Below, piece after piece: positions 11,462-35,803 of a stretch of DNA of 64,000 nt. The stretch spans positions 248,001-312,000 of the forward strand of contig NZ_AP018724.1 in the NCBI RefSeq assembly GCF_004001245.1. Reading direction: 5' to 3'. Made by a program: the position numbers and the translations under genes. The stretch is from Sulfurivermis fontis (GTDB lineage: Bacteria > Pseudomonadota > Gammaproteobacteria > Thiohalomonadales > Thiohalomonadaceae). Under the pieces are notes generated by a model. It was not told the origin of the DNA, made no database searches, and saw only the letters and a list, made by a program, of their open reading frames with translations. Every line of letters begins with the position of its first letter. Within the stretch, counting starts at the first letter, position 1.

Positions 11462-12265
11462 TTACAGGGGCGTCTTGTGCCCCGGCTTACGGGCCTCGAT
11501 GGTGGCGGAGATGACGTAGTCCTCGATGCCGCGTCCCGGCGCCCAGGTACGGATGAACTCGCGGCTTTCATCCTTGGGCCGGATGGCGATTGCGCCGAAC
11601 CCCGCATCGCGCATCATCGCCTCCAGCGCGTCGATGGTCGAGGCGCCGGCCATGCAGCCGGTGTAGAGGGCGAGGTCCTGGCGCGCCTCGGGCGGCAGTT
11701 CGGCGCTGGCAACGATGTCGGAGATGGCGAGCCGTCCGCCCGGCTTGAGCACGCGGAAGGCCTCGGCAAAGACGCGCGCCTTTTCCGGCGACAGGTTGAT
11801 GACGCAGTTGGAGATGATCACGTCGACGCTGCTATCGTCCACCGGCAGCTGCTCGATGTGGCCGCTGCGGAACTCCACGTTGGCGTAGCCGCCCTTCTGT
11901 GCATTGGCGCGCGCCTTGGCGATCATCTCGGGCGTCATGTCGACGCCGATCACCTTGCCCTGTTCGCCCACCGCGCGTGCGGCGAGAAAGGCGTCGAAGC
12001 CGGCGCCGCTGCCGAGGTCCAGCACCGTCTCGCCGGGTTGCAGCGCGGCGATGGCTTGCGGGTTGCCGCAGCCCAGGCCGAGGTTGGCGCCGGCGGGAAC
12101 GACGCTCACATCTTCGGTCGAATAGCCGAGCCCCTGTGATACCGCGGAGGCCGGTGCCGGTGCGCAGCAATCGCCGCTGCGGCAGCCGCCGCCGCCCTGC
12201 AACGCCACCTGGGCGTAGCTTTCGCGCACGGCGGCGCGGATGTCATCGTGCTTGTCCGGGTTCAT
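11462..12265 (-). CDS. arsM: arsenite S-adenosylmethionine methyltransferase
   Basis: Methylates As(III) to volatile or less toxic species. About 267 residues with the SAM motif VLDLGSGAGFDAFLAAR and the three conserved arsenic-binding cysteine regions: GCRSGDCC near the N-terminus, SNCVINLSPEK and YTGCMAGAS. The ATG at 12265 was chosen because AGGAG sits 6 nt upstream; an earlier frame start at 12361 adds an implausible 32-residue extension. It lies well apart from the main arsenic island at 28-39 kb. Confidence 0.9.
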   Translation of the reverse strand: MNPDKHDDIRAAVRESYAQVALQGGGGCRSGDCCAPAPASAVSQGLGYSTEDVSVVPAGANLGLGCGNPQAIAALQPGETVLDLGSGAGFDAFLAARAVGEQGKVIGVDMTPEMIAKARANAQKGGYANVEFRSGHIEQLPVDDSSVDVIISNCVINLSPEKARVFAEAFRVLKPGGRLAISDIVASAELPPEARQDLALYTGCMAGASTIDALEAMMRDAGFGAIAIRPKDESREFIRTWAPGRGIEDYVISATIEARKPGHKTPL

Positions 12266-12380
12266 GGTCATCTCCTGGGTAGTGGGTGTCCCATGGTTAA
12301 ACGGACGTGGTGTGCAAAAGACGCAGAAATGTTTTTTGCCCGGACGCCGGTGCCGCGCCACGCAGCCGGCAACGGACTCC

Positions 12381-12683
12381 TCAGCGTTGCTGACCGGGGG
12401 ACCGGCGTTGCAGTGCCTCGTTCATTTCCGCTTCGCTGATGCGCCCGTCATGGTCGCTGTCGATCTCGTCGAAGCCGAGCACGCGCGGTGCATTGCGCAG
12501 CTGCCGTCCCGCGGCGGCGCGCTCCGCCTGGCGGCGCGCACGGAAGGCATCGAACTCCGCGCGGCTGATGTAGCCGTCGCCGTCGGTGTCATGGACCGAA
12601 AACGGCGGCGGCGTGTCGGCGGCAAACGGTGCCGTCACCGGCAGCAGGGCAAACAGCAACAGCGCAATGATGCGGCCACTCAT
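12381..12683 (-). CDS. secreted EF-hand protein
   Basis: A 100-residue protein with an N-terminal signal peptide (MSGRIIALLLFALLPVTAPFAA) and two EF-hand calcium loops, DTDGDGYISRAEF and DSDHDGRISEAEM. Its ATG overlaps the stop of the hydrogenase-like gene, so the two are co-translated. Periplasmic calcium binding is supported by the loops; a role as a partner of the upstream redox protein is inferred from the overlap. Confidence 0.8.
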   Translation of the reverse strand: MSGRIIALLLFALLPVTAPFAADTPPPFSVHDTDGDGYISRAEFDAFRARRQAERAAAGRQLRNAPRVLGFDEIDSDHDGRISEAEMNEALQRRSPGQQR

Positions 12684-13828
12684 GGCTTGGCCTCCTTCAG
12701 GTACTCGGTCAGTGCGGCGAGATCGTCCTCGCCGAGTTTGAAGCGATGGGCGCGCACGCTGTTGCCGCGCAGTAGCTCCGCCACCTGATCGGGCAGGGTG
12801 CGCAGGCGCGTGGGGTCGGCGTCGTGGCAATACACGCAGTTGCCCTCGTACAGGGCGCGTCCCTGCTCGGCGCGGGTGGCGCCGCTGGCGGCGGGTGTGG
12901 GCTGGGCGTAGAAGCTGCCGTGATCCCAGAAGCCCGGTTCGGCGCAGCCGAGACAGGGATGGCCGGATTCGATGGGGGTACTGGTGCCGCCGTTCCACTT
13001 GCGCGTGGCGCAGGCGTTGTAGGTGGTGATGCCCTTGCAGCCCAGTTCGTACAGGCACCAGCCGGCGCGCGCGCCCTCGTCGTCGAACTGCTTGGCGAAG
13101 CGGCCCGCCTCGTAGTGGCCGCGACGCGAGCAGCGTTCGTGCACCGTCTCGCCGTACAGCGCCAGCGGCCGCGCGCGATCGTCCAGCTCGGGCAGGTGGC
13201 CGAAGGCGACCCGATGGGCGAGCACGGCGCTGATCACCTCCGGCACCGGCGGGCAGCCGGGCAGGTTCACCAGCGGCCGCAGCGGCACCTTGCCCTGCGC
13301 CATCAGGTCGGCCACGCCCATGGCGCCGGTGGGATTGGGCGCGGCGGCGGGCAGGCCGCCGAAGGCCGCGCAGGTTCCCACCGCCACCACCGCCTCGGCC
13401 GCCTCCAGGCAGCGGCCGAGCAGGCTCAGGTTGCTCTCGCCGGCGATGGTGGAACAGGCGCCGTGCAACGCCGTCGGCACCGAACCGTCGACCACCAGCA
13501 GCAGGCGTCCGGCGTGTTCTTTCAGAGTGCGCTCGCGCGCGGCCTCCGCCGCCGCACCGGCGGCGGCCTGCAGGGTGTGGTGATAGTCGAGGGAGATGAT
13601 CTCGAACAGCAGCCGTTCCAGGGACGGCGCCTCGCTGCGGGTGAGCGCTTCGGTGCAGCCGGTGCATTCCTGGAACGACAGCCACACCAGCGGCAGGCGC
13701 GGCGTGCGCGCCAGGGCGGCGGCCATCAGCCGGGCGGCGCCCGGCGGCAGCGCCAGCAGGGCGGCGGCCTGGGCGCAAAATTTCAGAAAGGCACGGCGGC
13801 TCAGGCGGGGTGTGCGAGGCGAGGCCAT
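12680..13828 (-). CDS. [NiFe]-hydrogenase small subunit with C-terminal cytochrome c motif, orphan
   Basis: A 382-residue protein starting at an ATG preceded by AGGAGG. It has a Tat signal (LSRRAFLKF), then the small-subunit signatures ECTGCTEAL, VGTCAAFGG and LPGCPP (proximal [4Fe-4S] ligands), HERC plus later cysteines GWCLYELGC, NAC and CLGC (distal and medial clusters). After residue 300 a short domain with CVYCH provides a c-type haem site. All expected cluster ligands are present. No large subunit or maturation gene lies nearby, which is unusual; it may pair with a distant subunit or act as an electron-transfer protein. Confidence 0.85.
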   Translation of the reverse strand: MASPRTPRLSRRAFLKFCAQAAALLALPPGAARLMAAALARTPRLPLVWLSFQECTGCTEALTRSEAPSLERLLFEIISLDYHHTLQAAAGAAAEAARERTLKEHAGRLLLVVDGSVPTALHGACSTIAGESNLSLLGRCLEAAEAVVAVGTCAAFGGLPAAAPNPTGAMGVADLMAQGKVPLRPLVNLPGCPPVPEVISAVLAHRVAFGHLPELDDRARPLALYGETVHERCSRRGHYEAGRFAKQFDDEGARAGWCLYELGCKGITTYNACATRKWNGGTSTPIESGHPCLGCAEPGFWDHGSFYAQPTPAASGATRAEQGRALYEGNCVYCHDADPTRLRTLPDQVAELLRGNSVRAHRFKLGEDDLAALTEYLKEAKP

Positions 13829-14457: not shown

Positions 14458-15402
14458 TCAGTTGCCGGTGATGGAAACCACGCGCTTGTTGCGCGCGGGA
14501 TCCTTGGTCCAGGCGTGCATGGAGCCGTCGTAGACCGCCACCTTTTTGTTGCCGAGGATTTCGGACAGCACGAACCAGTGGCCGGTGCTCAGGTGGCCGC
14601 TGTCGCAGTAGGTGATGGTCGGCTTGTCCAGCGCCACGCCCTTGGCCTTGGCCACCGCCTTCAATGTCGCGGCGTCGTGGAACGGCGCGGACTTGCCGCC
14701 GTTCTTGGCGTCCACCACCAGCATGTAGGGCTGCAGATTGATGGCGCCGTCGATGTGGCCCTTGGCGGAGACGTAGGTGCGGTGGCCGAGGCCGAGGAAC
14801 TGCGCTTCGTCGCGGCCGTCGATGATCTGGGTGTCGCCGCGGTTCAAGGCGTCGACGACGTCCTTGGTGGTGGCGAGCAGTTCGCGGCGCTCGGCGCGGG
14901 CGGTGAAATTGCCTTTGCCGGGGTTGCGGGCGTTGGGCACCAGCTGGCGCTTTTCGTTGGCCCATTTGGCGGCGCCGCCGTCGAGCAGGGCCATGTTGTC
15001 ATGGCCGTAATATTTGAGAGTCCAGTAGACGCGGGTACCCCAGGTCACTTCGCCGGAATCGGTCCCCGGAGTGACGATGACCACGGCGCTGTCGTTGCTG
15101 ACGCCGCGCTCCTGCATCAGCTTCTCGAAGTCGGCCTTGGAGGGCAGCAGGTCGTCGTGCACCTCGCCGTCCTTGTCGGTCTGATTCTTCACGCGCACCT
15201 GCTTCCACGGCAGCTGCACCGCGCCGGGAATGTACTGCATGCCGTCGTGGCTGCTGCGCACATCGAGGATCACCACGTTCTGCAGGTTGTTCTGCAGCCA
15301 GTCGGTGCTGACCAGCGGGCCAGGGACTTTGGCCGCATGGGCCGCCGAGACGGCGCCGAGCAGCAGCGCCGCTACGGACAACAGTCGTTTCATCGTATTC
15401 AT
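14458..15402 (-). CDS. periplasmic thiosulfate sulfurtransferase (rhodanese)
   Basis: A 314-residue exported protein with a signal peptide (KRLLSVAALLLGAVSAAHA) and two rhodanese domains: an N-terminal one with VVILDVRSS and no catalytic Cys, and a C-terminal one with the active-site loop CDSGHLST near residue 268. It transfers sulfane sulfur from thiosulfate or a similar donor to a thiophilic acceptor. The ATG at 15402 follows GAGAGGAG. It is divergent from the sulfur-relay operon and has its own near-consensus sigma-54 promoter at 15475-15489. Confidence 0.88.
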   Translation of the reverse strand: MNTMKRLLSVAALLLGAVSAAHAAKVPGPLVSTDWLQNNLQNVVILDVRSSHDGMQYIPGAVQLPWKQVRVKNQTDKDGEVHDDLLPSKADFEKLMQERGVSNDSAVVIVTPGTDSGEVTWGTRVYWTLKYYGHDNMALLDGGAAKWANEKRQLVPNARNPGKGNFTARAERRELLATTKDVVDALNRGDTQIIDGRDEAQFLGLGHRTYVSAKGHIDGAINLQPYMLVVDAKNGGKSAPFHDAATLKAVAKAKGVALDKPTITYCDSGHLSTGHWFVLSEILGNKKVAVYDGSMHAWTKDPARNKRVVSITGN

Positions 15403-15474
15403 ATCGACTCCTCTCTCGTGATTTTGATTTGTTCAGACGGCGCGGTGGGGCGCGATATCTGGCAAATGTCATTC

Positions 15475-15489
15475 GCAAGCATCGTGCCA
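15475..15489 (-). promoter_or_regulatory. sigma-54 promoter of the sulfurtransferase gene
   Basis: Read leftward, the sequence is TGGCACGATGCTTGC: GG and GC are separated by exactly 10 bases and both boxes (TGGCAC, TTGC) match the -24/-12 consensus. The predicted start near 15464 leaves about a 60-nt leader before the ATG at 15402. A gene for a sigma-54-dependent activator lies 5 kb away at 20568-21920. Confidence 0.75.
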
Positions 15490-15500
15490 CTGTCGCGTGT

Positions 15501-15524
15501 GCCTGCGCCGCTAGCGGCGCAGGC
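15501..15524. promoter_or_regulatory. perfect 24-bp palindrome between divergent promoters
   Basis: An uninterrupted palindrome whose half is GCCTGCGCCGCT. It has no T-tract. It lies between two divergent sigma-54 promoters, 12 bp upstream of the leftward one. It could be an operator or enhancer, or a hairpin insulating the two units; function is inferred only from position. Confidence 0.5.
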
Positions 15525-15592
15525 CATGTAAAGCAAGGAGTTAGCGTGCGTGCATGCGATGCCCGAGGCCGTGCGTAGGCGGTGTTGATCCG

Positions 15593-15605
15593 TGGCAATG
15601 TGCCA
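15593..15605. promoter_or_regulatory. candidate enhancer dyad
   Basis: TGGCA-ATG-TGCCA, a 5-3-5 inverted repeat roughly midway between the two divergent sigma-54 promoters, about 110-125 bp from each -24/-12 box. That distance is usual for NtrC-type activator sites. The repeat is short, so this is a guess to be tested rather than a firm site. Confidence 0.3.
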
Positions 15606-15715
15606 GAGTCTGGCGATTTGCAACGGTCTTGCAGGCGGGCGCCGCGCTGGAGCGGGCAGTACAAAACCGACGCAGGTTGCTGTGTGGACGGAAGTTTTTG
15701 CCTGGACAGAGAAAC

Positions 15716-15731
15716 TGGCACCTGCTTTGCA
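15716..15731 (+). promoter_or_regulatory. sigma-54 promoter of the sulfur-relay operon
   Basis: TGGCACCTGCTTTGCA matches the -24/-12 consensus, with GG and GC 10 bases apart. The predicted transcript starts near 15743, about 47 nt before the ATG at 15790. It points into the eleven-gene operon ending at 20298. Confidence 0.8.
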
Positions 15732-15789
15732 CTTGACTGGCTGTATACGGAGCAAAGAACTCCGGACACACGCCAACCACGGAGACCCC

Positions 15790-16281
15790 ATGGAACTGTT
15801 CAAGAAGACCATCGATCCCGTCACCGCCCTGATCCTCATCGGCATCGCCAACGTGTTCATGTTTCTCGTCGTCGGTGCATGGACCGTGGGCGGCGGTGAA
15901 ACCATGATGACCGGCCTGATGGCGCAGGCGGTGCTGGGCGAGCAACTCAACCGCGTGCCGTTCTGGGAGCTGGTGTTCCAGCCCTTCATCGGCGACTGGC
16001 GCATGTATCTGAGCCTCGGCATGCTGAGCGGCGCCTTCATCGCGGCGGTGTTGTCCAAGGAGTTCTATCTGCGCCTGCCGCGCAGCCTGTCGGAGTGGGT
16101 GATGATCACCGTCGGCGGCCTGCTCATGGGCATCGGCATCCGTCTCGCCTTCGTCTGCAACGTCAGCACCTTCTTCGGCCTGTCCAACCAGATGAACCTG
16201 GGCGGCTATCTGGCCATCTCCGGCATCATCGCCGGCTGCTACGTCGGTTCCATGATCTACAAGCGCATCCTGGAGGGTTGA
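15790..16281 (+). CDS. YeeE/YedE-family sulfur transport protein, half 1
   Basis: A 163-residue membrane protein with about four hydrophobic segments and the family cysteine in FVCNVSTFFGLSN. YeeE/YedE (TsuA-like) proteins import thiosulfate or sulfane sulfur through conserved cysteines. Here the transporter is split into two proteins, this one and the next, separated by 1 bp. The ATG at 15790 was chosen for its position after GGAGACCCC; the frame is open further upstream, across the promoter. It is the first gene of the relay operon. Confidence 0.82.
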   Translation: MELFKKTIDPVTALILIGIANVFMFLVVGAWTVGGGETMMTGLMAQAVLGEQLNRVPFWELVFQPFIGDWRMYLSLGMLSGAFIAAVLSKEFYLRLPRSLSEWVMITVGGLLMGIGIRLAFVCNVSTFFGLSNQMNLGGYLAISGIIAGCYVGSMIYKRILEG

Positions 16282-16282
16282 G

Positions 16283-16879
16283 ATGAGTATCGTCGGGCAA
16301 TGTCTGGTCGGATTTCTGTTCGGCGCCATCGTCGGCGTGCTGGTGCAGCGCTCGCGCTTCTGCAACGTGGCGGCGCTGCGTGATGCCATGCTGTTCAAGA
16401 GCTATCGCAACACCAAGGCCCTGCTCGCCGGCATGATGGTGATGACCCTGGGGTTCACCCTGTTCATGAGCTTCGGCGACGGCAAGCCGCTGCGCTTCGA
16501 CGTCGGCCTCAACACCCTCATCGGCCTGTTCATCTTCGGCGTCGGCATGGTGCTGGCCGGCGCCTGCACCGTGTCCACCTGGGTCAAGGCGGGCGAGGGC
16601 AACGTCGGCGCAGTGTGGGCGCTGCTGTTCACCTTCATCGGCATGTTCCTGTTCTCGCTGGTGTGGTCCTTCACCTATTGGCCGCCGGCGCCTTCCACCA
16701 TGACCGGCGAGCCCAACCTGGCCGGCCTGCAACTGGGGCTGTCCAATGCGGCCACGCTACAGGAGAAATTCGGCGTGCCGGCCATCGTGTTCGGTCTCAT
16801 CCAGGCCGGCGTGCTCTACGCGATCTACCGTGCCGTGCTGCGCAAGGAGCGGCAGGTGGCGGCGGAACGCGGCGGCTGA
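16283..16879 (+). CDS. YeeE/YedE-family sulfur transport protein, half 2
   Basis: A 198-residue membrane protein with about five hydrophobic segments. It carries RSRFCNVAALRD near residue 25 and AGACTVSTWVKAGEGN near residue 92, the cysteine-containing loops typical of YeeE/YedE proteins. With the preceding gene it probably forms one transporter. Substrate (thiosulfate, sulfane sulfur) is inferred from the family and from the TusA-like gene that follows. Confidence 0.85.
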   Translation: MSIVGQCLVGFLFGAIVGVLVQRSRFCNVAALRDAMLFKSYRNTKALLAGMMVMTLGFTLFMSFGDGKPLRFDVGLNTLIGLFIFGVGMVLAGACTVSTWVKAGEGNVGAVWALLFTFIGMFLFSLVWSFTYWPPAPSTMTGEPNLAGLQLGLSNAATLQEKFGVPAIVFGLIQAGVLYAIYRAVLRKERQVAAERGG

Positions 16880-16980: not shown

Positions 16981-17286
16981 ATGGGACTTTTCGGCAAGAA
17001 GAAAGAGCCGGCCGCGGTCGAGGCCGGCGGTTCGGTGACCCTGGCGGACGGCAGCACCCACGAGGTGGGCCGCGTGGTGGATGCGGTGGGCGACTCCTGC
17101 CCGCGTCCGCAGCTCAAGACCAAGAAGGCGCTGGCGGATGCCGCCCCGGGTACCGTGGTCGAGGTGCGCATCGACAACCCCACCTCGATGGAGGCGATCC
17201 CGCCGATGATGCCGGAGGTGGGCGGCACCCATCTCGGCACGGTCAAGGCCGAGCGCTACTGGCGCGTCATCGTGCGCAAGAACTGA
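16981..17286 (+). CDS. TusA-like sulfur carrier protein
   Basis: A 101-residue cytoplasmic protein. Residues 28-101 form a TusA/SirA fold with the Cys-Pro-x-Pro signature SCPRPQLKTKKAL (Cys40) that carries a persulfide. An N-terminal extension MGLFGKKKEPAAVEAGG, which is charged and then flexible, is not usual for TusA. ATG 16981 lies 8 nt after GGAG; an in-frame ATG at 16975 is too close to it. Positioned after the two transporter genes, it would accept imported sulfur on the cytoplasmic face. Confidence 0.88.
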   Translation: MGLFGKKKEPAAVEAGGSVTLADGSTHEVGRVVDAVGDSCPRPQLKTKKALADAAPGTVVEVRIDNPTSMEAIPPMMPEVGGTHLGTVKAERYWRVIVRKN

Positions 17287-17296
17287 GGACGGCGCG

Positions 17297-17533
17297 ATGA
17301 CTTCCGGCCAATGGCAACTGGGCGTGTTTTCGGCACTGGTGGGAATCACTGCCCTCGCAACCCTGGTCTATGTGCTGGTCGCAGGCCCCGACTATCTCGC
17401 CTACTCGCGCGATGGCGTGCCGCATCTGACGCCCAAGGTGGCGCATCCGCAAACCGGCGAGGCGCTGGAGATGGGCATGCTGATCAAGCACTACAAGGGC
17501 GAGTTGGAAAACGGCGCCAAGGTCTATTACTGA
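17297..17533 (+). CDS. small membrane-anchored protein of unknown function
   Basis: A 78-residue protein with one hydrophobic segment (about residues 9-30) and a hydrophilic C-terminal part rich in charged residues (HYKGELENGAKVYY). No family was recognised. It follows the TusA-like gene by 10 bp and is followed by two more small membrane proteins, so it is probably a subunit of the same membrane complex. Confidence 0.6.
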   Translation: MTSGQWQLGVFSALVGITALATLVYVLVAGPDYLAYSRDGVPHLTPKVAHPQTGEALEMGMLIKHYKGELENGAKVYY

Positions 17534-17546
17534 CGGAGGCACGGTG

Positions 17547-17642
17547 ATGGAAGCACTCGATCTCAAGACGCTGATCCACATCGGCATGTTCTTCCTGGCG
17601 TTCTATCTGATGTACGTCAGCTTCACCAAGGACCCGTTCTGA
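17547..17642 (+). CDS. 31-residue single-span membrane peptide
   Basis: ATG at 17547 preceded by CGGAGG. The 31 codons read MEALDLKTLIHIGMFFLAFY and then LMYVSFTKDPF, a single hydrophobic helix with short polar ends. It lies 13 bp after the previous gene and 10 bp before the next, all in the same direction, with good ribosome-binding sites, so it is probably real although below the usual size cut-off. It resembles small subunits of membrane complexes; function unknown. Confidence 0.6.
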   Translation: MEALDLKTLIHIGMFFLAFYLMYVSFTKDPF

Positions 17643-17652
17643 GGAGGCGCCG

Positions 17653-17937
17653 ATGAGTGATTCGATGAGCAATACCCAGATCCTGCTGTTCTGCGGCGTT
17701 TCCCTCGCCCTCACCCTCGGGGCGGCGGCCGTGCTGTTTCCCTATGCCGCGATGAGCGATGAGCAACGTGCGCGTCTCGACACGCCACAGCCGGCGGAGA
17801 CGCTGGGCGCGATCGATCTCGGTGGTTACTTCGGCTCGGTGCCGGTCACCGACCTGGTGCATTACTACGTGACCAATCCGCCTCATGGCGGTACGGCACC
17901 CACGGCCGTCAAGGCGGATCGCTTCGGCGGTTGCTGA
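17653..17937 (+). CDS. small membrane protein of unknown function
   Basis: A 94-residue protein with one hydrophobic segment (about residues 9-32) and a C-terminal tail containing YFGSVPVTDLVHYYVTNPP and ending RFGGC. The ATG is preceded by GAGGAGG. The stop overlaps the next start (TGATG). No family was recognised. A C-terminal Cys in a sulfur-handling operon is noteworthy and might bind sulfur, but nothing in the sequence proves it. Confidence 0.6.
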   Translation: MSDSMSNTQILLFCGVSLALTLGAAAVLFPYAAMSDEQRARLDTPQPAETLGAIDLGGYFGSVPVTDLVHYYVTNPPHGGTAPTAVKADRFGGC

Positions 17938-18878
17938 TGGTGTATGGCATGGTGCGGCTGTCACTGTGGCTGACTTTGCTGCTGCTCTGTAGCGGCGCGG
18001 CGGCGGAGTTTCGCTATGCGGCGACGCTGCCGGAAGAGGGTGTGGTTGTGGATGCCCGTCCCTTGGAGCAGTGCCGTGCCATGAGCCTGGTGGGTGCACG
18101 CTGCCTGCCTGCTGCGGATTTACTCGGCCCGCACCGCAGGCTGCCGAGCTTCCGGGATATTTTATGGGTGTTTGGCACCGCCGGCCTGCGCGGCGACGAG
18201 ACGCTGACGGTCGTGGGTGGCGATCCCCTGGAACGCGATTATGTCGCCGCCTTGCTCTACCTCGCAGGCCAACGTGAGGTCGTGGTCCTGACCGAACCGG
18301 TACCCCGCCTGATTGCCGCCGGTGCGGGCGCCGCGCCCGGCATGCAACGCGGCATGATCCGCGATCCCATCTATCGTGCTGCCATGCGCGAGCATCTGCT
18401 GGTACTGCGTGATGAGTTGTGGACCGAGTTGCGCAGCACCAGGCCGCCGGCGCTGTTCGACGGCCGCAGCGATGCGGAGTATCGCGGCGAGCGGGTGCGG
18501 GCACAGCGCGGCGGGCGTCTGCCGGGCGCGCTGTCATGGCCTGACCATGAATTGCGCACGTCGCTGACACGCGAGGTGCGCCAATCCCGCTCCGCGGTCG
18601 TTGCCTATGGCCATGATCCGCTGGAGTCCCTGGCCTATTTCACCCTGCTGCGTGCCGGTGCCCGCTTTGACGCGCGCGTCTATGTCCAGGGCTGGCGCGA
18701 GTGGGCCGCGCGCGGTGAATTGCCGGTGGATCATGAAACCTTGCCCGAGCCCGTTGCCGCCGCGGCACCGCCGATGGTGCAGGGGAGCCCGCCATGGCTG
18801 TGGCTGGCCACGGCGCTGGCCATTGCATCTATTGCCGTACTTTTTGCCGCCCGAAGGAGTCACCGATGGACCTCTTGA
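17937..18878 (+). CDS. membrane-anchored rhodanese-like protein lacking the catalytic Cys
   Basis: A 313-residue protein with a signal peptide (LSLWLTLLLLCSGAAA), two rhodanese-like domains and a C-terminal membrane helix (WLWLATALAIASIAVLF) followed by arginines. The second domain has the fold signatures LFDGRSDAEYRGER and VYVQGWREW, but the active-site loop reads VVAYGHDPLES, with Gly where rhodaneses have Cys. It is therefore probably a binding or docking protein on the periplasmic face. The ATG at 17937 overlaps the previous stop. Confidence 0.72.
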   Translation: MVYGMVRLSLWLTLLLLCSGAAAEFRYAATLPEEGVVVDARPLEQCRAMSLVGARCLPAADLLGPHRRLPSFRDILWVFGTAGLRGDETLTVVGGDPLERDYVAALLYLAGQREVVVLTEPVPRLIAAGAGAAPGMQRGMIRDPIYRAAMREHLLVLRDELWTELRSTRPPALFDGRSDAEYRGERVRAQRGGRLPGALSWPDHELRTSLTREVRQSRSAVVAYGHDPLESLAYFTLLRAGARFDARVYVQGWREWAARGELPVDHETLPEPVAAAAPPMVQGSPPWLWLATALAIASIAVLFAARRSHRWTS

Positions 18879-19156
18879 TTGACGTATCCACCCCCGATGC
18901 TGCCCCCGTGCTGGTGCCGCTGTTGCAGGCGCTGCACCGGCGCGGCAGCGAGTGGGCGATATTTTTCACCAACGACGGCGTCAAGGCGCTGAGCGATCCG
19001 CAGCTGGCCGGCCTGCTGCACCTGGCGGAGCAGGCCGTTGCCTGCGAGTTCTCCTGGGAACGCCACATGGGCCACGCACCGTGTCCCGTTACCATCGGCA
19101 GCCAGACCAATCACAGCATGCTGGCGGCCAACGCCGCCCGCATCATCGGCCTGTAG
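18866..19156 (+). CDS. DsrE-like protein
   Basis: A 96-residue cytoplasmic protein resembling the DsrE/DsrF fold: MDLLIDVSTPDAAPVLVPLL, then WAIFFTNDGVKALSDP and a cysteine-containing stretch VACEFSWERHMGHAPCP. DsrE-type proteins pass sulfane sulfur between TusA-like carriers and oxidation enzymes. The start overlaps the preceding gene by 13 bp. Assignment to the superfamily rests on overall pattern, not on a diagnostic motif. Confidence 0.65.
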   Translation: MDLLIDVSTPDAAPVLVPLLQALHRRGSEWAIFFTNDGVKALSDPQLAGLLHLAEQAVACEFSWERHMGHAPCPVTIGSQTNHSMLAANAARIIGL

Positions 19157-19168
19157 GGGAGCGTATTC

Positions 19169-19447
19169 ATGAGTGCAGGAAAGAAATCCTTGCTGCTGTT
19201 GGCGCGCCGCGATCACACCGAGGCGATGCGCGTGGCTGCCGGCCTCACCATCTTCGGCCACGCGGTGCGCCTGGTATTCATGACCGGGCCGGTGGCCGAC
19301 ACGGCGGAGAACGCCGAGCAGGCGGAGATGCTGGAGCTGTCCGACATCGCGCCGGAGACCACCGTCGCCGGGCAGGACCTGCCGCACCTGGAACCCGGCG
19401 CCCTGGCCCTCGCCATGGCGGAAGCCGACGCCGTCATCAGCCTGTGA
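19169..19447 (+). CDS. DsrE/DsrF-like protein without conserved Cys
   Basis: A 92-residue protein with a DsrE/F-like alpha/beta pattern: SLLLLARRDHTEAMRVAAG, GHAVRLVFMTG and AMAEADAVISL. It contains no cysteine, so it cannot itself carry a persulfide and may be the structural partner of a hetero-oligomer, as DsrF and DsrH accompany DsrE. That partner role is inferred. Confidence 0.6.
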   Translation: MSAGKKSLLLLARRDHTEAMRVAAGLTIFGHAVRLVFMTGPVADTAENAEQAEMLELSDIAPETTVAGQDLPHLEPGALALAMAEADAVISL

Positions 19448-19456
19448 GGTAACGCC

Positions 19457-19642
19457 ATGAACATCGCCATACTCGATAGCGGACTGTTTCCCGATCGCGC
19501 CACCATGGACGAGGCGGTCAACTACTTCGAACCCCATTACAACTTCTACCGCTGGAACCTGCGCGCGCCGGAGTTGACGCGCGACGACTGGGACCGCATC
19601 GTCGACGAGTTGTTGAGCGCCGATCGGGTGATCGTGATCTGA
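19457..19642 (+). CDS. small cytoplasmic protein, possible third DsrE-like partner
   Basis: A 61-residue protein (NIAILDSGLFPDRATMDEAV at the N-terminus, LLSADRVIVI at the end) with an alpha/beta pattern that resembles the end of DsrE-like proteins. It lacks cysteine. It follows the preceding gene by 9 bp and is followed by the cytochrome gene after 5 bp. Function unknown. Confidence 0.5.
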   Translation: MNIAILDSGLFPDRATMDEAVNYFEPHYNFYRWNLRAPELTRDDWDRIVDELLSADRVIVI

Positions 19643-19647
19643 CGACG

Positions 19648-20298
19648 ATGTTGCGGCCTTGCCTGCTCGCGTTGCTGCTGCTGATCGGCGCCGGTCCGGT
19701 CCATGCGGTGGGCGAGCACGGCCGGCGCTTTGCGGCGGAGATCGCCGTGATGCTGGGCGACGCTGAAAAGCTGCTGGCGGCCGATACACTGCCCCTGCAT
19801 CGCCGCGGCCTGGAGGCGCGGCTGGAGAGCAGCCTCAGCCTGCTCGGCATACTGGCACGTGAACAGGCACAGGAACGCGGCAGTGCGCCGTCAGCGTTGC
19901 TTGCCCGCGTGAATACCCTGCGCGACGACTACCGCAGCGGCCGGCTACAACGCCTGCGCGATGATCTGCGCGCGCTGGTGCAGGACCATCCGCTGCACCT
20001 GCCCGAGTGGCGACAACCCGAAGCGACGGCGGCCCGCCTCGCCGCCGGCCGCACGCTGTACGAAACCCTGTGCCTGGCCTGCCACCACCAGCCTTACCAG
20101 GAACGGGAAAACCCGCCTTACAATCTGTTCCGCCAGGCGCGCAGCGAAGCGCGCGAAATATTCGCCGCACGCCTCTATGGCGGGGTGCGTGGCGTGCCCG
20201 CCACCTCGCTGGATAATCCCCTGTCGCTGGAAGAGATGACCGCGCTGCTGGTCTGGCTGCTGGAGGCGCCGGACGATCAGATCGGCAACGCCGAGTGA
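19648..20298 (+). CDS. periplasmic c-type cytochrome
   Basis: A 216-residue protein with a signal peptide (LRPCLLALLLLIGAGPVHA), an alpha-helical central part of about 100 residues, and a C-terminal cytochrome c domain with C142-L-A-C-H146 and a later VPATSLDNPLSLEEM that could supply an axial ligand region. It is the last gene of the relay operon and suggests that the pathway removes or donates electrons in the periplasm. Confidence 0.82.
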   Translation: MLRPCLLALLLLIGAGPVHAVGEHGRRFAAEIAVMLGDAEKLLAADTLPLHRRGLEARLESSLSLLGILAREQAQERGSAPSALLARVNTLRDDYRSGRLQRLRDDLRALVQDHPLHLPEWRQPEATAARLAAGRTLYETLCLACHHQPYQERENPPYNLFRQARSEAREIFAARLYGGVRGVPATSLDNPLSLEEMTALLVWLLEAPDDQIGNAE

Positions 20299-20567: not shown

Positions 20568-21901
<1,334 letters not shown>

Positions 21902-21920
<19 letters not shown>

Positions 21921-23344
21921 GAAGTGATCTTCTCCGATTCCGGCAACGGCTGGCCGGGCTGGGGATTGTCCATCGGCAGGCGCAGGCGGAACAGGGTGCG
22001 CCCGGGGCGGCTCTCCGCCAGGCAGATGCCGCCCTGCATGGCGTGCAGCAGGGTCATGCACAGATAGAGTCCGAGGCCGGTGCCCTCGCCGGCGGGCTTG
22101 CTGCTGACGAAGGGCTCGAACAGGGTGTCGTGCATGGTCTCCGGGATGCCCGGGCCGTTGTCTTCCACCTCCAGCCAGGCCAGGCCGTCCTCACTGTAGG
22201 CACGCAGGATGAGGGCGGTACAACCGGCGTGGGTGGCATTGCTCAGCAGGTTGAACAGCACGTGCTCCAGCGCCGCCGGATCGGCCCAGGCCGGCACCTG
22301 CGCGTCGCCTTCCACGGCCACGTTCTCTACGCCGCGTTCCTGCATCAGTGGTCGGGTGAGTTGCACCACGTCGCGTGCCAGGGCGGCCAGATCGACGCGT
22401 TGGCCCACCGGGTTGGGCTGGTGCGCCGCGGTGAGCAGGCTGCTGACGATGCCGGTGCAGGTGGCGGCCTGTTTTTCGATCACCTCCAGCCGCTCGCGCA
22501 GTTCCTGGTCTGCGGTCTGGCGCCGCGCCATTTGCGCATAGCCCTTGATGTTGCCCAGCGGCGTATTGAGGCCGTGGGCCAGCCCCGCCGCCAGTTGGCC
22601 GATGGCGGCCAGGCGCTGCTCGCGGCACAGGCGCTCGGTCGCGGCGCGGGTGAGCTGGTTGGCACGCTCCACCTGGTCGATGTGTTCGGCTACCTCGCTG
22701 CGCAGGCGGGCGAAGGTGGCCGCCAGTTGTTCCACTTCCTGCGGCGCGTCGGCGGGAATCGGCGCCGGCGGCTGTTCGCTGAGCGGATTGATTTGGGCGG
22801 CCAGCTGCTGGATGGGGCGGATCATGCGCCGTTGCAGCAGATTTCTCAGCAGCACGAACAGCGCCAGGGTGACGGCAAAGATGCCGATGATGCCCAGCAC
22901 GCGCAGTTGCAGGATCATGGCATCGGCGCGGCCGCTGTCGTACTCGACCGTGACATCGCCGATGCGGTTGTGCAGCAGCATGATCGGTTCCTCCACGGTG
23001 CCGCGATGGCTGGCGCGGGCGCGCTCGGCGACATTCTCCGCCTGGCCGAGGATTTCGCCGTCGTCGCGGCGGATGCGGATATAGAGCACGTCGCGGTGTT
23101 TGACCAGGTCCTCCACATAGCGGGCCAGGGTGCCGTAGTCGCGCATCAGCACCGCGTCGAGGCTGACCACGGCGAGCTGCCGCGCCAGGGCCTGCGCCTT
23201 GTCGTGCAGCGCCCCTTCGACGAAGGTGCTGACGCCTTGCTGGACGATGAAGCCGAACAGGCTGGCGAGCAGGAACAGGCCGCCGCCCGCATAGAGACTG
23301 ATCAGCCGCGACAGCGATCTGCGCCGGGTTGGTTTGCTCACCAT
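21902..23344 (-). CDS. membrane sensor histidine kinase
   Basis: A 480-residue kinase with two membrane spans (about residues 20-38 and 172-192) enclosing a periplasmic domain, then a HAMP-like linker, a DHp helix with LAAGLAHGLNTPLGNIKG (the phosphorylated His) and an HATPase with NLLSNATHA, VEDNGPGIP and GEGTGLGLYL. The ATG at 23344 overlaps the upstream stop (ATGGTGA). It forms a co-translated trio with the response regulator downstream and the PhnD-like lipoprotein upstream. Confidence 0.92.
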
Positions 23345-24246
23345 GGCAGGGGCTGGCAGCCGCAATCGCGATCCAGGCTGTCCACCAGTTGGCGCGCGAA
23401 GTCGTAGCGCGCGTCGTCGACGGCAATGAAGTGCCGGCCGGGTTGCAGCGTTTCGATGGCGCTGCGGCCGGCGGCGTCCGGTTCGATCAGCGCACGGCGC
23501 ACGGCCTCCACCGTGGTGCCGTCCAGTCCGGGCCGCGCCACGATCACATGGGGCGGCAGCGGCGGCGACTCGGCGATGATGCGCAGGCCGCTGCCCTGGG
23601 CGAGATATTGCTCGGCGATCTCGCGCCGCACGCCACCGGCGTGGTAGTCACCGTACAGCACCGCCAGCGCCACGCGCTCGTGCCGGCCGAGATAGCTGAA
23701 ATCGGCCAGGTCGGCCAGGGTCACCCCGGCCTTGCGCAGCATGCCGCGCGGCACGTAGTGACCGCTGAAGGATTTGTGCGAGCCGAAGGCCATGGTACGG
23801 CCCCGGAGTTCGGCCAGCGTGCGTATCTCGCTGTCGGCGCGCGTGATGATCACGCTGAAATAAGTGTCTTCCGCGGCGATGATCTGTACCCGCGCCGCCT
23901 TGCCGGCGCCATAGCCGTCGTGGGCGCGCAGATACGGGGTCGGTCCCAGGTAAGCGAAGTCGGCGCCGTCGCCGGCAATGCGGCGGATGTGATCCTCGTA
24001 GCTGCTGGCGATGTAGAACTCCACCGGGCGCCCGAGCCTGGCGGCGATGTAATCGACCAGTGGCTGGAAGTGGGCTACCAGACGTGTTGGCGTGTCGTAG
24101 GGATAGACGGCGAATACCAGCGCCCGCTCCGGCACGGCGGCCGGGTCGCCGGATGCCGTCTGCGGCGTGCGATCGCAGGCTGCCAGCAGCAACAGAAGCA
24201 GGAGCGGAAGCAGAGCCGGTGCGATACGGTAAACGGAGGGCGTCAT
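23338..24246 (-). CDS. PhnD-like periplasmic binding lipoprotein, sensor component
   Basis: A 302-residue lipoprotein with a lipobox (LLLLLLLAAC) and a PhnD/phosphate-phosphonate type solute-binding fold (VFAVYPYDTPTRLVAHFQPL, DFAYLGPTPYL, MAFGSHKSFSGHYVP). There is no ABC transporter gene near; instead it is co-translated with a histidine kinase. The same fold forms the sensor half of the tetrathionate kinase TtrS, so it may sense a sulfur oxyanion here. The ATG at 24246 was preferred to 24282 because the signal peptide starts there. Confidence 0.82.
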   Translation of the reverse strand: MTPSVYRIAPALLPLLLLLLLAACDRTPQTASGDPAAVPERALVFAVYPYDTPTRLVAHFQPLVDYIAARLGRPVEFYIASSYEDHIRRIAGDGADFAYLGPTPYLRAHDGYGAGKAARVQIIAAEDTYFSVIITRADSEIRTLAELRGRTMAFGSHKSFSGHYVPRGMLRKAGVTLADLADFSYLGRHERVALAVLYGDYHAGGVRREIAEQYLAQGSGLRIIAESPPLPPHVIVARPGLDGTTVEAVRRALIEPDAAGRSAIETLQPGRHFIAVDDARYDFARQLVDSLDRDCGCQPLPW

Positions 24247-29010: not shown

Positions 29011-30066
29011 TTACAGCACGGCATTGAACAGATAGCCCACCAGCAGGATGCCGGCGGCCACCACGCCCGCGAAGGTGGCGATGAGGCGCGGCTTGAGCAC
29101 CTTGCGCAGGATGATCATCTCCGGTGCGGACAGGGCGATGACGGCCATCATGAAGGCCAGCACCGTGCCGAGCGCCGCGCCCTTGCCCATCAGCGCCTCG
29201 ACGATGGGGATGATGCCGGCCGCATTGGTGTACATGGGCACGCCGATGAGCACCGCCGCCGGCACCGACCACCACGGCGCGTCCTTGCCCATGATCGAGG
29301 CCATGAAATCCTCCGGCACGTAGCCGTGGATGCCGGCGCCGAGGGCGATGCCGGCGAGGATGTAGGGCCACACCTTGCCGACGATCTCGCGCACATGGTG
29401 GAAACCGTTGTCGATGCGCTCGCCCCAGCCCATCTCTGCGTTGACTGCCGCCGTCGGCGTCGCGGTGTTCTGCATGGCGCGCACCCAGTCTTCCAGATGG
29501 TGTTCCATGCGCAGCTTGCCGATCACCAGGCCGGCGACGATGGCCACCAGCAGCCCCAGCCCCAGGTAGAGCGCCGCCACCTTCCAGCCGAACATGCCGA
29601 ACAGCAGCGCCAGCGCCACCTCGTTGACCATCGGCGCCGAGATCAGGAACGAGAAGGTCACCCCCAGCGGCACGCCGGCCTGCAAAAAGCCGATGAACAG
29701 CGGCACCGCCGAGCAGGAGCAGAACGGCGTGACGATGCCCAGGGAGGCGGCCATGGCGTTGCCGCTGCCCAGGCGCCGGCCGGAGAGCAGGGCGCGGGTG
29801 CGCTCGGGGGAGACGAAGGTGTGCACGATGCCCATCACGAAGACGATGCCGGTGAGCAGCAGCAGCACCTTGGGCGTGTCGTAGAAGAAGAATTGCAGCG
29901 CGCTGCCCAGATGGCTGTCACGCGCCACCGGCAGCGCGGCCACCAGCGCCTCGGAGGCCGGGACCAGGGCCTGGTAGAGCAGAAACCACACCACGGCGGC
30001 CAGGGGCAGGAACAGCAGCGGCTGGGCGCTGGGCCAGTTTTTCAGTCGGGCGGCAAGGGCTTGCAT
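29011..30066 (-). CDS. ArsP/UPF0718-type permease, copy 1
   Basis: A 351-residue membrane permease with about eight hydrophobic segments, in the UPF0718 (DUF318) superfamily to which ArsP belongs. The Cys-containing loop TPFCSCSAVPLFIGF is the key family motif. ArsP exports trivalent organoarsenicals in other bacteria; some members move unknown substrates with thioredoxin-like partners, as here. A second copy lies at 33892-34848. Confidence 0.82.
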   Translation of the reverse strand: MQALAARLKNWPSAQPLLFLPLAAVVWFLLYQALVPASEALVAALPVARDSHLGSALQFFFYDTPKVLLLLTGIVFVMGIVHTFVSPERTRALLSGRRLGSGNAMAASLGIVTPFCSCSAVPLFIGFLQAGVPLGVTFSFLISAPMVNEVALALLFGMFGWKVAALYLGLGLLVAIVAGLVIGKLRMEHHLEDWVRAMQNTATPTAAVNAEMGWGERIDNGFHHVREIVGKVWPYILAGIALGAGIHGYVPEDFMASIMGKDAPWWSVPAAVLIGVPMYTNAAGIIPIVEALMGKGAALGTVLAFMMAVIALSAPEMIILRKVLKPRLIATFAGVVAAGILLVGYLFNAVL

Positions 30067-34882: not shown

Positions 34883-35803
34883 TTACAGTGCGTAATCCGC
34901 GTCGTAAGGTTCGTTACCCATCACCGTCGGCAGGGTCAGCTCATTGCCCCAGTGCGACCAGCCGCCGTTGTACAGGCGCACGTCCTTGTAGCCCAGGCTC
35001 CTCAGCTGCATCCAGGCCAGGCCCATGCGGAAGCCGTCGTGGCAGTAGATGTACACGGTGCTGTCCTTGGGTATGGACTGGTACATGGCGGCGAGGCGCT
35101 CGGCGTCGTGCCACTTCTGGCTCTGCGCGTCGGTGCCGTCCAGGCTCACCACGTTGATGGCGCCGGGGATGTGGCCGCCCTGGATGGAGTGGCGGATCAC
35201 CTCGCCGGTGTACATGTCGTGCGGACGGGCATCGAGCAGCACCACCTTGGGATCGCGGCGCGACACCACGTCGTCATAGACGTCGGTCCATTCCACGTAC
35301 AGCTTCTTGTCGGCGTCCTTCAGGGTGACGTTGCCGGGCTTGCGCTTGACCGGGTCGGTGGACAGTTCGTTGAAGGCGCTCCACTCGTTGGTGCCGCCTT
35401 CCAGCACCTTGACGTTCTTCATGTCGTAGCCGTACAGGGCGAGCAGATAGTACAGGCGCGAAGCCAGCGCGGTGCGCGAGTCGTCATAGATGACGATGAG
35501 GGAATCGTTGTTGATGCCCCAGCGGCGCAGGGTGGCCTGGAAGGCCGCTTTGGTGGGGAAGCGCATGATGGGCGAGCCGTGATTGTCACCCAGGTCCTTG
35601 AAGCGCTGCACTTGCACGGCGCCTGCGATATGGCCGACGGTGTAATAGCGGTGCGGGTGGTAGCGCACCTCCAGCACCACGGTCCTGGGATCGTTGATGT
35701 GTTCTTCCAGCCAGGCGGCATCGACCAGGAAGTCGCGTGCCAGCACCGCTTGGGTGAGAGTGAACAGGCAGAGCGCCAGCAAGAGTTTCGTCAAGGTACG
35801 CAT
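34883..35803 (-). CDS. periplasmic thiosulfate sulfurtransferase (rhodanese)
   Basis: A 306-residue exported two-domain rhodanese with a signal peptide (KLLLALCLFTLTQAVLA). Domain 2 has the active site YCHDGFRMGLA and VRLYNGGWSHW; domain 1 lacks a Cys. It sits between ACR3 and the permease in the arsenic island. It is similar in layout to the sulfurtransferase at 14458-15402. The link between arsenic and sulfane sulfur is plausible (thioarsenate), but inferred. Confidence 0.85.
   Translation of the reverse strand: MRTLTKLLLALCLFTLTQAVLARDFLVDAAWLEEHINDPRTVVLEVRYHPHRYYTVGHIAGAVQVQRFKDLGDNHGSPIMRFPTKAAFQATLRRWGINNDSLIVIYDDSRTALASRLYYLLALYGYDMKNVKVLEGGTNEWSAFNELSTDPVKRKPGNVTLKDADKKLYVEWTDVYDDVVSRRDPKVVLLDARPHDMYTGEVIRHSIQGGHIPGAINVVSLDGTDAQSQKWHDAERLAAMYQSIPKDSTVYIYCHDGFRMGLAWMQLRSLGYKDVRLYNGGWSHWGNELTLPTVMGNEPYDADYAL

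Follow-up and report, generated by a model that had tools for sequence, protein, structure and literature searches.

A divergent sigma-54 control region probably places an exported sulfurtransferase and a sulfur relay operon of Sulfurivermis fontis under one sensor system

Within a 64,000-nucleotide stretch of the Sulfurivermis fontis genome (the window), an exported double-rhodanese sulfurtransferase gene and a sulfur relay operon are read away from each other across a short intergenic stretch. Two sigma-54-type promoter sites stand back to back in this stretch, and a tandem dyad lies almost midway between them and recurs beside relatives of an activator gene encoded in the window. Based on this combination, we consider it quite likely that one sensor system switches on both sulfur gene sets via the shared tandem site.

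Gene content of the locus

The features of the locus are listed by their coordinates within the window:

14458-15402, minus strand: exported double-rhodanese sulfurtransferase Rhd1 (Pfam Rhodanese in two stretches; translation; tree)
15489-15474, minus strand: predicted leftward sigma-54 promoter TGGCACGATGCTTGCG, predicted to serve the exported sulfurtransferase gene
15501-15524, no strand: perfect 24-bp GC-rich palindrome GCCTGCGCCGCTAGCGGCGCAGGC, single in the genome
15593-15623: putative tandem upstream activating site, composed of TGGCA-ATG-TGCCA (15593-15605), a 5-bp spacer and TGGCG-ATT-TGCAA (15611-15623)
15716-15731, plus strand: predicted rightward sigma-54 promoter TGGCACCTGCTTTGCA, predicted to serve the relay operon
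15790-16281, plus strand: YeeE/YedE-type half transporter 1, first gene of the relay operon (Pfam Sulf_transp)
16283-16879, plus strand: YeeE/YedE-type half transporter 2 (Pfam Sulf_transp)
16981-17286, plus strand: TusA sulfur carrier (Pfam TusA)
17297-17533 (sm1), 17547-17642 (sm2) and 17653-17937 (sm3), plus strand: small proteins, membrane-like by eye
17937-18878, plus strand: Rhd2, second rhodanese-domain protein (Pfam Rhodanese on the longer frame 17931-18878)
18866-19156, 19169-19447 and 19457-19642, plus strand: three small genes matched in many related operons
19648-20298, plus strand: exported-looking protein with one CxxCH haem motif (weak Cytochrome_CBB3 match)
20568-21920, minus strand: sigma-54-dependent response regulator (EBP), the proposed activator (Pfam Response_reg, Sigma54_activat, HTH_8)
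21902-23341, minus strand: membrane histidine kinase (Pfam HisKA, HATPase_c)
23338-24246, minus strand: PhnD/PtxB/ArrX-like periplasmic binding lipoprotein, the proposed sensor (Pfam Phosphonate-bd; PDB relatives)

The relay operon thus comprises eleven genes for two half transporters, TusA, small proteins, a rhodanese and a haem protein. Matches to sm1-sm3 are found in many related operons, and a Pfam scan of sm1 and sm3 returned no family. The three small genes between Rhd2 and the haem protein gave 0 Pfam families each, two of them (18866-19156 and 19169-19447) being called DsrE-like by eye. The haem protein reached 21.2 bits with Pfam Cytochrome_CBB3, under the cut-off of 27. The rhodanese usual for this operon is absent from its usual place here, and its best match genome-wide is the divergent Rhd1 (34%), the N-terminus of which is signal-peptide-like by eye. 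A further double-rhodanese protein is encoded at 34883-35803 on the minus strand and is 30% identical to the operon-type rhodanese of one related operon (L036). At 12680-13828, also on the minus strand, a NiFe hydrogenase small subunit (hydA, 370 bits vs a cut-off of 179.5) carries a CxxCH haem motif at its C-terminus, apparently a fused small cytochrome c, in which Pfam recorded no cytochrome domain.

The genes for regulator, kinase and binding lipoprotein make up a minus-strand triad, which is oriented convergently to the relay operon. The regulator shows NtrC-type features, i.e., a receiver, an AAA+ domain with GAFTGA and a Fis-type HTH. Besides it, the genome encodes 13 other activators of the sigma-54 type.

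A bidirectional sigma-54 control region

The intergenic stretch 15403-15789 (387 bp) parts the leftward double-rhodanese gene from the operon starting at 15790. The -24 G and -12 C are found at 15487 and 15475 in the leftward promoter and at 15718 and 15730 in the rightward one; judged by this spacing, the transcripts are predicted to start at about 15463 and 15742, respectively. An initial annotation of this DNA had described two near-perfect -24/-12 sites facing away from each other, both with exact GG-N10-GC spacing, and direct reading confirms the sites as well as the spacing. With the sigma-54 consensus TGGCACG-N4-TTGCW, each site agrees at 11 of the 12 fixed positions. The exact word TGGCAC-N5-TTGC occurs nowhere else in the 64 kb window. 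Across the 3.25-Mb genome it was counted 21 times, these two included, vs 9 occurrences of a reversed control pattern, so that nearly half of such words could be due to chance. For the pair, 5000 dinucleotide shuffles of the 387-bp stretch yielded the rightward site 21 times, the leftward site 11 times and both together 0 times; the paired divergent placement is consequently not explained by chance.

RpoN is encoded in the genome (Sigma54_DBD, 236.7 bits). Neither a sigma-70-like promoter as an alternative within 15393-15800 nor an intrinsic terminator in the promoter region was detected, and a known RNA element was rejected by an Rfam scan of the window at gathering threshold (0 matches). A search for IHF sites between enhancer and promoters led to a single match with one mismatch at 15531, to which we give no weight. 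The reading of 15403-15789 as a bidirectional sigma-54 control region, in which both sites look like sigma-54 promoters, is supported by these data.

Between the promoters, the 5-3-5 dyad of the initial annotation is present as TGGCA-ATG-TGCCA. The second dyad, TGGCG-ATT-TGCAA, had not been recorded there and makes the reported one half of a tandem pair of the overall form TGGCA-N3-TGCCA-N5-TGGCG-N3-TGCAA. According to the coordinates, ~145 bp separate this tandem site from the leftward predicted start and ~134 bp from the rightward one. The dyads of NtrC-type enhancer-binding proteins are usually found 80-200 bp upstream of the promoter, a range into which the position 15593-15623 falls for both promoters.

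A search of the whole genome for further targets had also been suggested, and its outcome fits a one-locus regulator. The pattern search returned no other copy of the window's tandem at 0 or 1 mismatch and two other places at 2, and the 19 remaining strong -24/-12 sites in the genome have no tandem site within 300 bp (≤13/20). Since both searches failed to find a second close copy, the window's activator looks dedicated to this locus. The consensus TTGCA-N3-TGCAA employed for these 19 sites, and for 85 related upstream regions described below, was drawn after reading three orthologous loci (L173-L175); only the 31-mer search of the ortholog loci uses the window's own letters (20 fixed).

Recurrence of the tandem site beside orthologous triads

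A kinase search (E up to 1e-50, at most four candidates scored per genome) matched 6 of 369 class genomes, own included, providing five other loci (L172-L176). In a phylum sample of 398 genomes (E up to 1e-60, at most four candidates per genome), only the own genome was matched. All five other kinase genes adjoin an activator gene, the products of which share 53-69% identity with the window's activator. In four of the five loci (L172-L175), a contiguous binding-protein gene completes the set; in L176, this gene is ~2.4 kb off.

Downstream of the activator gene, a match to the tandem site was detected in four of these five systems, one of them weak (L172). Over the whole fetched stretch, the best 31-mer match scored 18/20 in L173 (TTGCAGAATGCCA-gaccc-TGGCATTCTGCAA, before the sulfurtransferase) and 16/20 in L174 (TTGCAATCTGCAA-ggggc-TTGCAAAATGCAA, just past the activator gene). 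The matches in L175 (TTGCATCCTGCCA-gggtc-TTGCAGATCGCTA, 15/20 and, on the other strand, 16/20) and in L172 (15/20, the next scoring 14) likewise stand just past the activator gene, the contig of L172 ending 98 bp after it; no tandem site was found by the 31-mer search in L176. Among 500 shuffles of each local stretch, the match score was reached by none for L173, L174 and L175 and by three for L172. Within 10 kb of the own genome, a chance match of 16/20 lacking the dyad form was also obtained (L177 8524); the score alone is thus undecisive for L174 and L175, where place and symmetry carry the weight.

A -24/-12 element follows the tandem in L173 (score 0.88), L174 (0.93) and L175 (0.88), with predicted starts at distances of ~97, ~97 and ~108 bp from it as calculated from the coordinates. 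In both L173 and L174, the gene preceded by the tandem and by its own -24/-12 site encodes an exported sulfurtransferase from the clade of Rhd1, with which it shares 41-44% identity. Also downstream, a YeeE/YedE-type transporter with Sulf_transp in two stretches is encoded (its frame in L174 being cut by the contig end). L173 additionally hosts a ~0.6-kb rhodanese-like frame between the activator and the tandem site with its sulfurtransferase. Tandem and promoter stand before a porin gene in L175, and an ACR3 arsenite transporter gene directly follows the activator in L176. In a rhodanese tree of 30 out of 69 collected rows, Rhd1 joins the sulfurtransferases of L173, L174, L083 and L077 (100/100) and is separated from the rhodanese usual for the operon. 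Upstream of the same-clade genes in L083 and L077, neither a tandem nor a good -24/-12 site was present.

The relay operon in other genomes

The first gene of the relay operon was detected in 10 of 369 class genomes, own included (E up to 1e-20). Among 38 near relatives of the host, 0 carry a close copy and 15 show weak matches (≤38% identity, best E 2.5e-11). A pattern scan of 84,980 species genomes revealed 123 relatives of the operon, 80 of which were kept. Together with five of the nine other class genomes, four being dropped as the same contigs, these gave a set of 85 operons, outside of which the window's own operon stands. Their gene order is widely conserved.

Directly upstream of the operon, 14 of the 85 loci carry another triad (in some, the binding protein or kinase is lost at a contig end). 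A -24/-12 site before the first gene was found in 14/14 of these vs 8/71 of the loci that lack an adjacent activator, starting 53-81 bp before the first gene in the 14, and an opposite-strand control gave 0/14 and 1/71. The score weights as well as the thresholds of 0.85 and 0.95 were our own choice, and as a consequence of the near-identical pairs L118/L119, L084/L088 and L036/L054, the 14 correspond to approximately 11 independent cases. Of the eight further operons with a site, one (L110) is followed downstream by an activator from the clade of the 14. L042 shows the same arrangement, yet lacks a -24/-12 site within 300 bp of its first gene, and no site above threshold was scored for L089 and L104, whose activators are of another type.

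The activators of the 14 loci, L042 and L110 form one clade (100/100, 17 rows) from which the window's activator is excluded. The tree thereby rejects the window's activator as an ortholog of the operon-upstream activators elsewhere, and the activators seen beside related operons reach at most about 40% identity to it. The DNA sites differ likewise. Upstream regions of the 14 contain TGTCTC-N5-GAGACA-like tandem dyads scoring 15-22 of 24, in comparison to 12-17 in the others and 13 in the window, and on the consensus scale of the window's tandem the window scores 16/20 vs a highest value of 14 in the 85 related upstream regions. Because sites are found before 14/14 operons elsewhere but with another activator clade and another site type, the relay operon of the window seems to have kept its sigma-54 dependence and changed its activator. 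As a detail of the operon-upstream loci, the TGTCTC-type dyad in L036, L038 and L039 takes its first letters from the TGA stop codon that ends the activator gene upstream.

Discussion

Computation has shown the sites and genes, and that the tandem recurs close to orthologous activator genes and -24/-12 sites before related operons; what we infer is the ligand, the phosphorelay, the binding and that a single site activates the two promoters. The periplasmic binding protein would detect an anion, perhaps a sulfur oxyanion, and signal through the kinase to the response regulator. The phosphorylated regulator would occupy the tandem dyad (15593-15623) as two dimers and, through looping, switch on RpoN polymerase at each of the two promoters, i.e., one enhancer and one activator would make two contacts. 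Exported sulfurtransferase and relay operon would then be made together. A sulfur oxyanion as ligand of the lipoprotein is a guess based on the target genes.

The initial annotation had tied both gene sets to one activator. In favor of this, the tandem recurs with one activator gene type and stands before a same-clade sulfurtransferase in two of the five orthologous systems. Less firm is the rightward half of the claim, in which drive from the same site is presumed and the activators adjacent to related operons represent another clade with another site. Since this operon-linked clade excludes the window's activator, use of the rightward promoter by the latter has no direct parallel. We would give an even chance to the broader reading that non-orthologous triads control the same relay operon in different genomes and that, here, a sulfurtransferase-linked triad captured the operon by way of one shared tandem enhancer.

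Several other explanations have to be weighed. Chance agreement of the -24/-12 sites with the consensus would account for some single sites, considering the 21 genomic words against 9 reversed ones, but is barely credible for this pair, as 0/5000 shuffles contain both sites and related operons that adjoin an activator gene carry -24/-12 sites at the same position. It appears very unlikely that the palindrome is the main operator, e.g., of a separate repressor or activator, with the tandem dyad being secondary. A perfect 24-bp palindrome between the promoters had been correctly reported, whereas the accompanying title, by which the promoters are bracketed by a palindrome, is wrong. It exists in one genomic copy, even if up to 3 mismatches are allowed, and exceeds the longest palindrome of each of 30 window shuffles (the largest being 22). 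However, it sits 11 bp behind the left -24 element, at approximately -38 to -61 of the left promoter and thus close for a typical enhancer site, and no counterpart was seen by eye at the orthologous sites read, where the tandem dyad recurs. A regulatory role for the palindrome is not supported. More weight, though still at a distinctly low probability, goes to a division of labor in which the local triad runs the leftward promoter only and the rightward one is driven by an activator encoded elsewhere in the genome. The different clade and site of the activators adjacent to related operons would agree with this, and a distant one of the 13 other activators could act at this locus. Yet 0 of these 13 fall into the operon-linked clade, the TGTCTC-N5-GAGACA pattern scores 13/24 in the window's intergenic stretch vs 15-22 with that activator and 12-17 in others, and the single tandem site is placed almost midway between both starts.

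A last alternative leaves the anatomy unchanged and concerns the signal only: the triad might sense arsenic in the manner of AioXSR, with arsenic inducing the sulfur genes. We regard this as unlikely, while taking it more seriously than the three alternatives above. Gene order and protein classes are the same as in AioXSR. To the left of the promoters, at a distance of 3 kb, lies an arsenite methyltransferase gene (11462-12361, minus strand, 371 bits vs an NCBIfam cut-off of 263), and on the other side of the locus the window encodes an ArsP-type permease (29011-30066, minus strand). Arsenic-related neighbors are also found at the orthologous systems, namely the ACR3 transporter gene directly after the activator in L176, an ArsP-type permease beside the L174 system, and an ArsR-family regulator together with a low-molecular-weight phosphatase/ArsC-fold protein in L175. 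On the other hand, the residue of the window's binding protein that seems to match AioX Cys106, its position being derived from the ArrX alignment, is a Gly, and the lipoprotein sequence resembles phosphonate/phosphite-binding proteins as well as ArrX (E 1e-19 to 1e-24 against PDB) more closely than AioX (E 0.004-0.007). Furthermore, the gene behind the tandem is a sulfurtransferase and no arsenic gene in L173 and L174, and the L174 binding protein matches phosphite/phosphonate proteins, not ArrX, at E up to 1e-10.

Returning to the proposed control of both sulfur gene sets by one sensor system, several known systems invite comparison. In AioXSR, ArxXSR and ArrX systems, a PhnD-like binding protein, a kinase and a regulator are encoded together and control a nearby operon, an RpoN promoter being described in NT-26 (PMC5908839, PMC6011840, PMC5335332). 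The window likewise encodes binding protein, kinase and sigma-54 regulator together, contiguously also in 4/5 orthologous systems. It differs in that the linked genes are a sulfurtransferase gene and the sulfur relay operon, by the Gly that appears in place of a pocket Cys106 common to AioX, ArxX and ArrX (PMC5908839), and perhaps by the DNA site: GTT-N10-AAC is documented for AioR, whereas the site that recurs in our 31-mer search is a tandem of the TKGCA-N3-TGCMA-like type. The TspS-TspR system of Acidithiobacillus caldus, a sigma-54 two-component control of the sox cluster with the TspR site TGTCCCAAATGGGACA (PMC6335251), shares the sigma-54 response regulator beside thiosulfate-metabolism genes and a palindromic upstream site. 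By its description it is set apart, as a periplasmic binding protein is without mention in the excerpted text of that report. Comparing sites rather than proteins, TGTCCCAAATGGGACA resembles the TGTCTC-N5-GAGACA type of the operon-linked activators and not the window's site.

In terms of gene content, the operon is similar to the YTD cluster of sulfur disproportionators, described in the excerpts of that study as YedE, TusA, DsrE-type and two conserved hypothetical genes (PMC9751629), in having a YedE-type transporter, TusA and small proteins. It is distinguished by two half transporters, a total of eleven genes, a rhodanese and a haem protein, and of the YTD features it yields Pfam matches to Sulf_transp and TusA and none to DsrE. 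The thiocyanate dehydrogenase cluster of Thioalkalivibrio thiocyanoxidans, as far as the excerpted account goes (PMC5744179), also places a kinase and a GAFTGA-type activator beside sulfur-oxidation genes; its target genes are others, and its kinase has a GAF domain.

Among the open-access literature matches listed, nothing addressed this promoter region, this triad with a sulfurtransferase or sigma-54 control of the relay operon. Our analysis provides a named activator, a site and two promoters, all predicted, for a widespread sulfur relay operon without a regulatory study among those matches, and as a consequence the operon's inducing signal becomes directly testable. The promoter type seems to be kept while activator and DNA site differ between lineages, and the binding-protein/kinase/sigma-54 triad would be extended to sulfur genes. 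If the proposal is true, the triads described for arsenic would belong to a broader sensor class that also covers sulfur or other oxyanions.

Two further observations were made in the same genome. A second binding-protein/kinase/sigma-54-activator triad is encoded ~3 kb left of the window (L177 3040-6750, G000:C1:241040-244750). In the activator tree, its regulator falls together with the L104 and L089 activators, whose genes are located within a few kb of relay operons. In addition, a second, divergent RpoN-like DNA-binding domain (33.9 bits) was detected at L140 (G000:C1:21476-21928), ~1.6 kb from a sigma-54 activator at 18686-19870.
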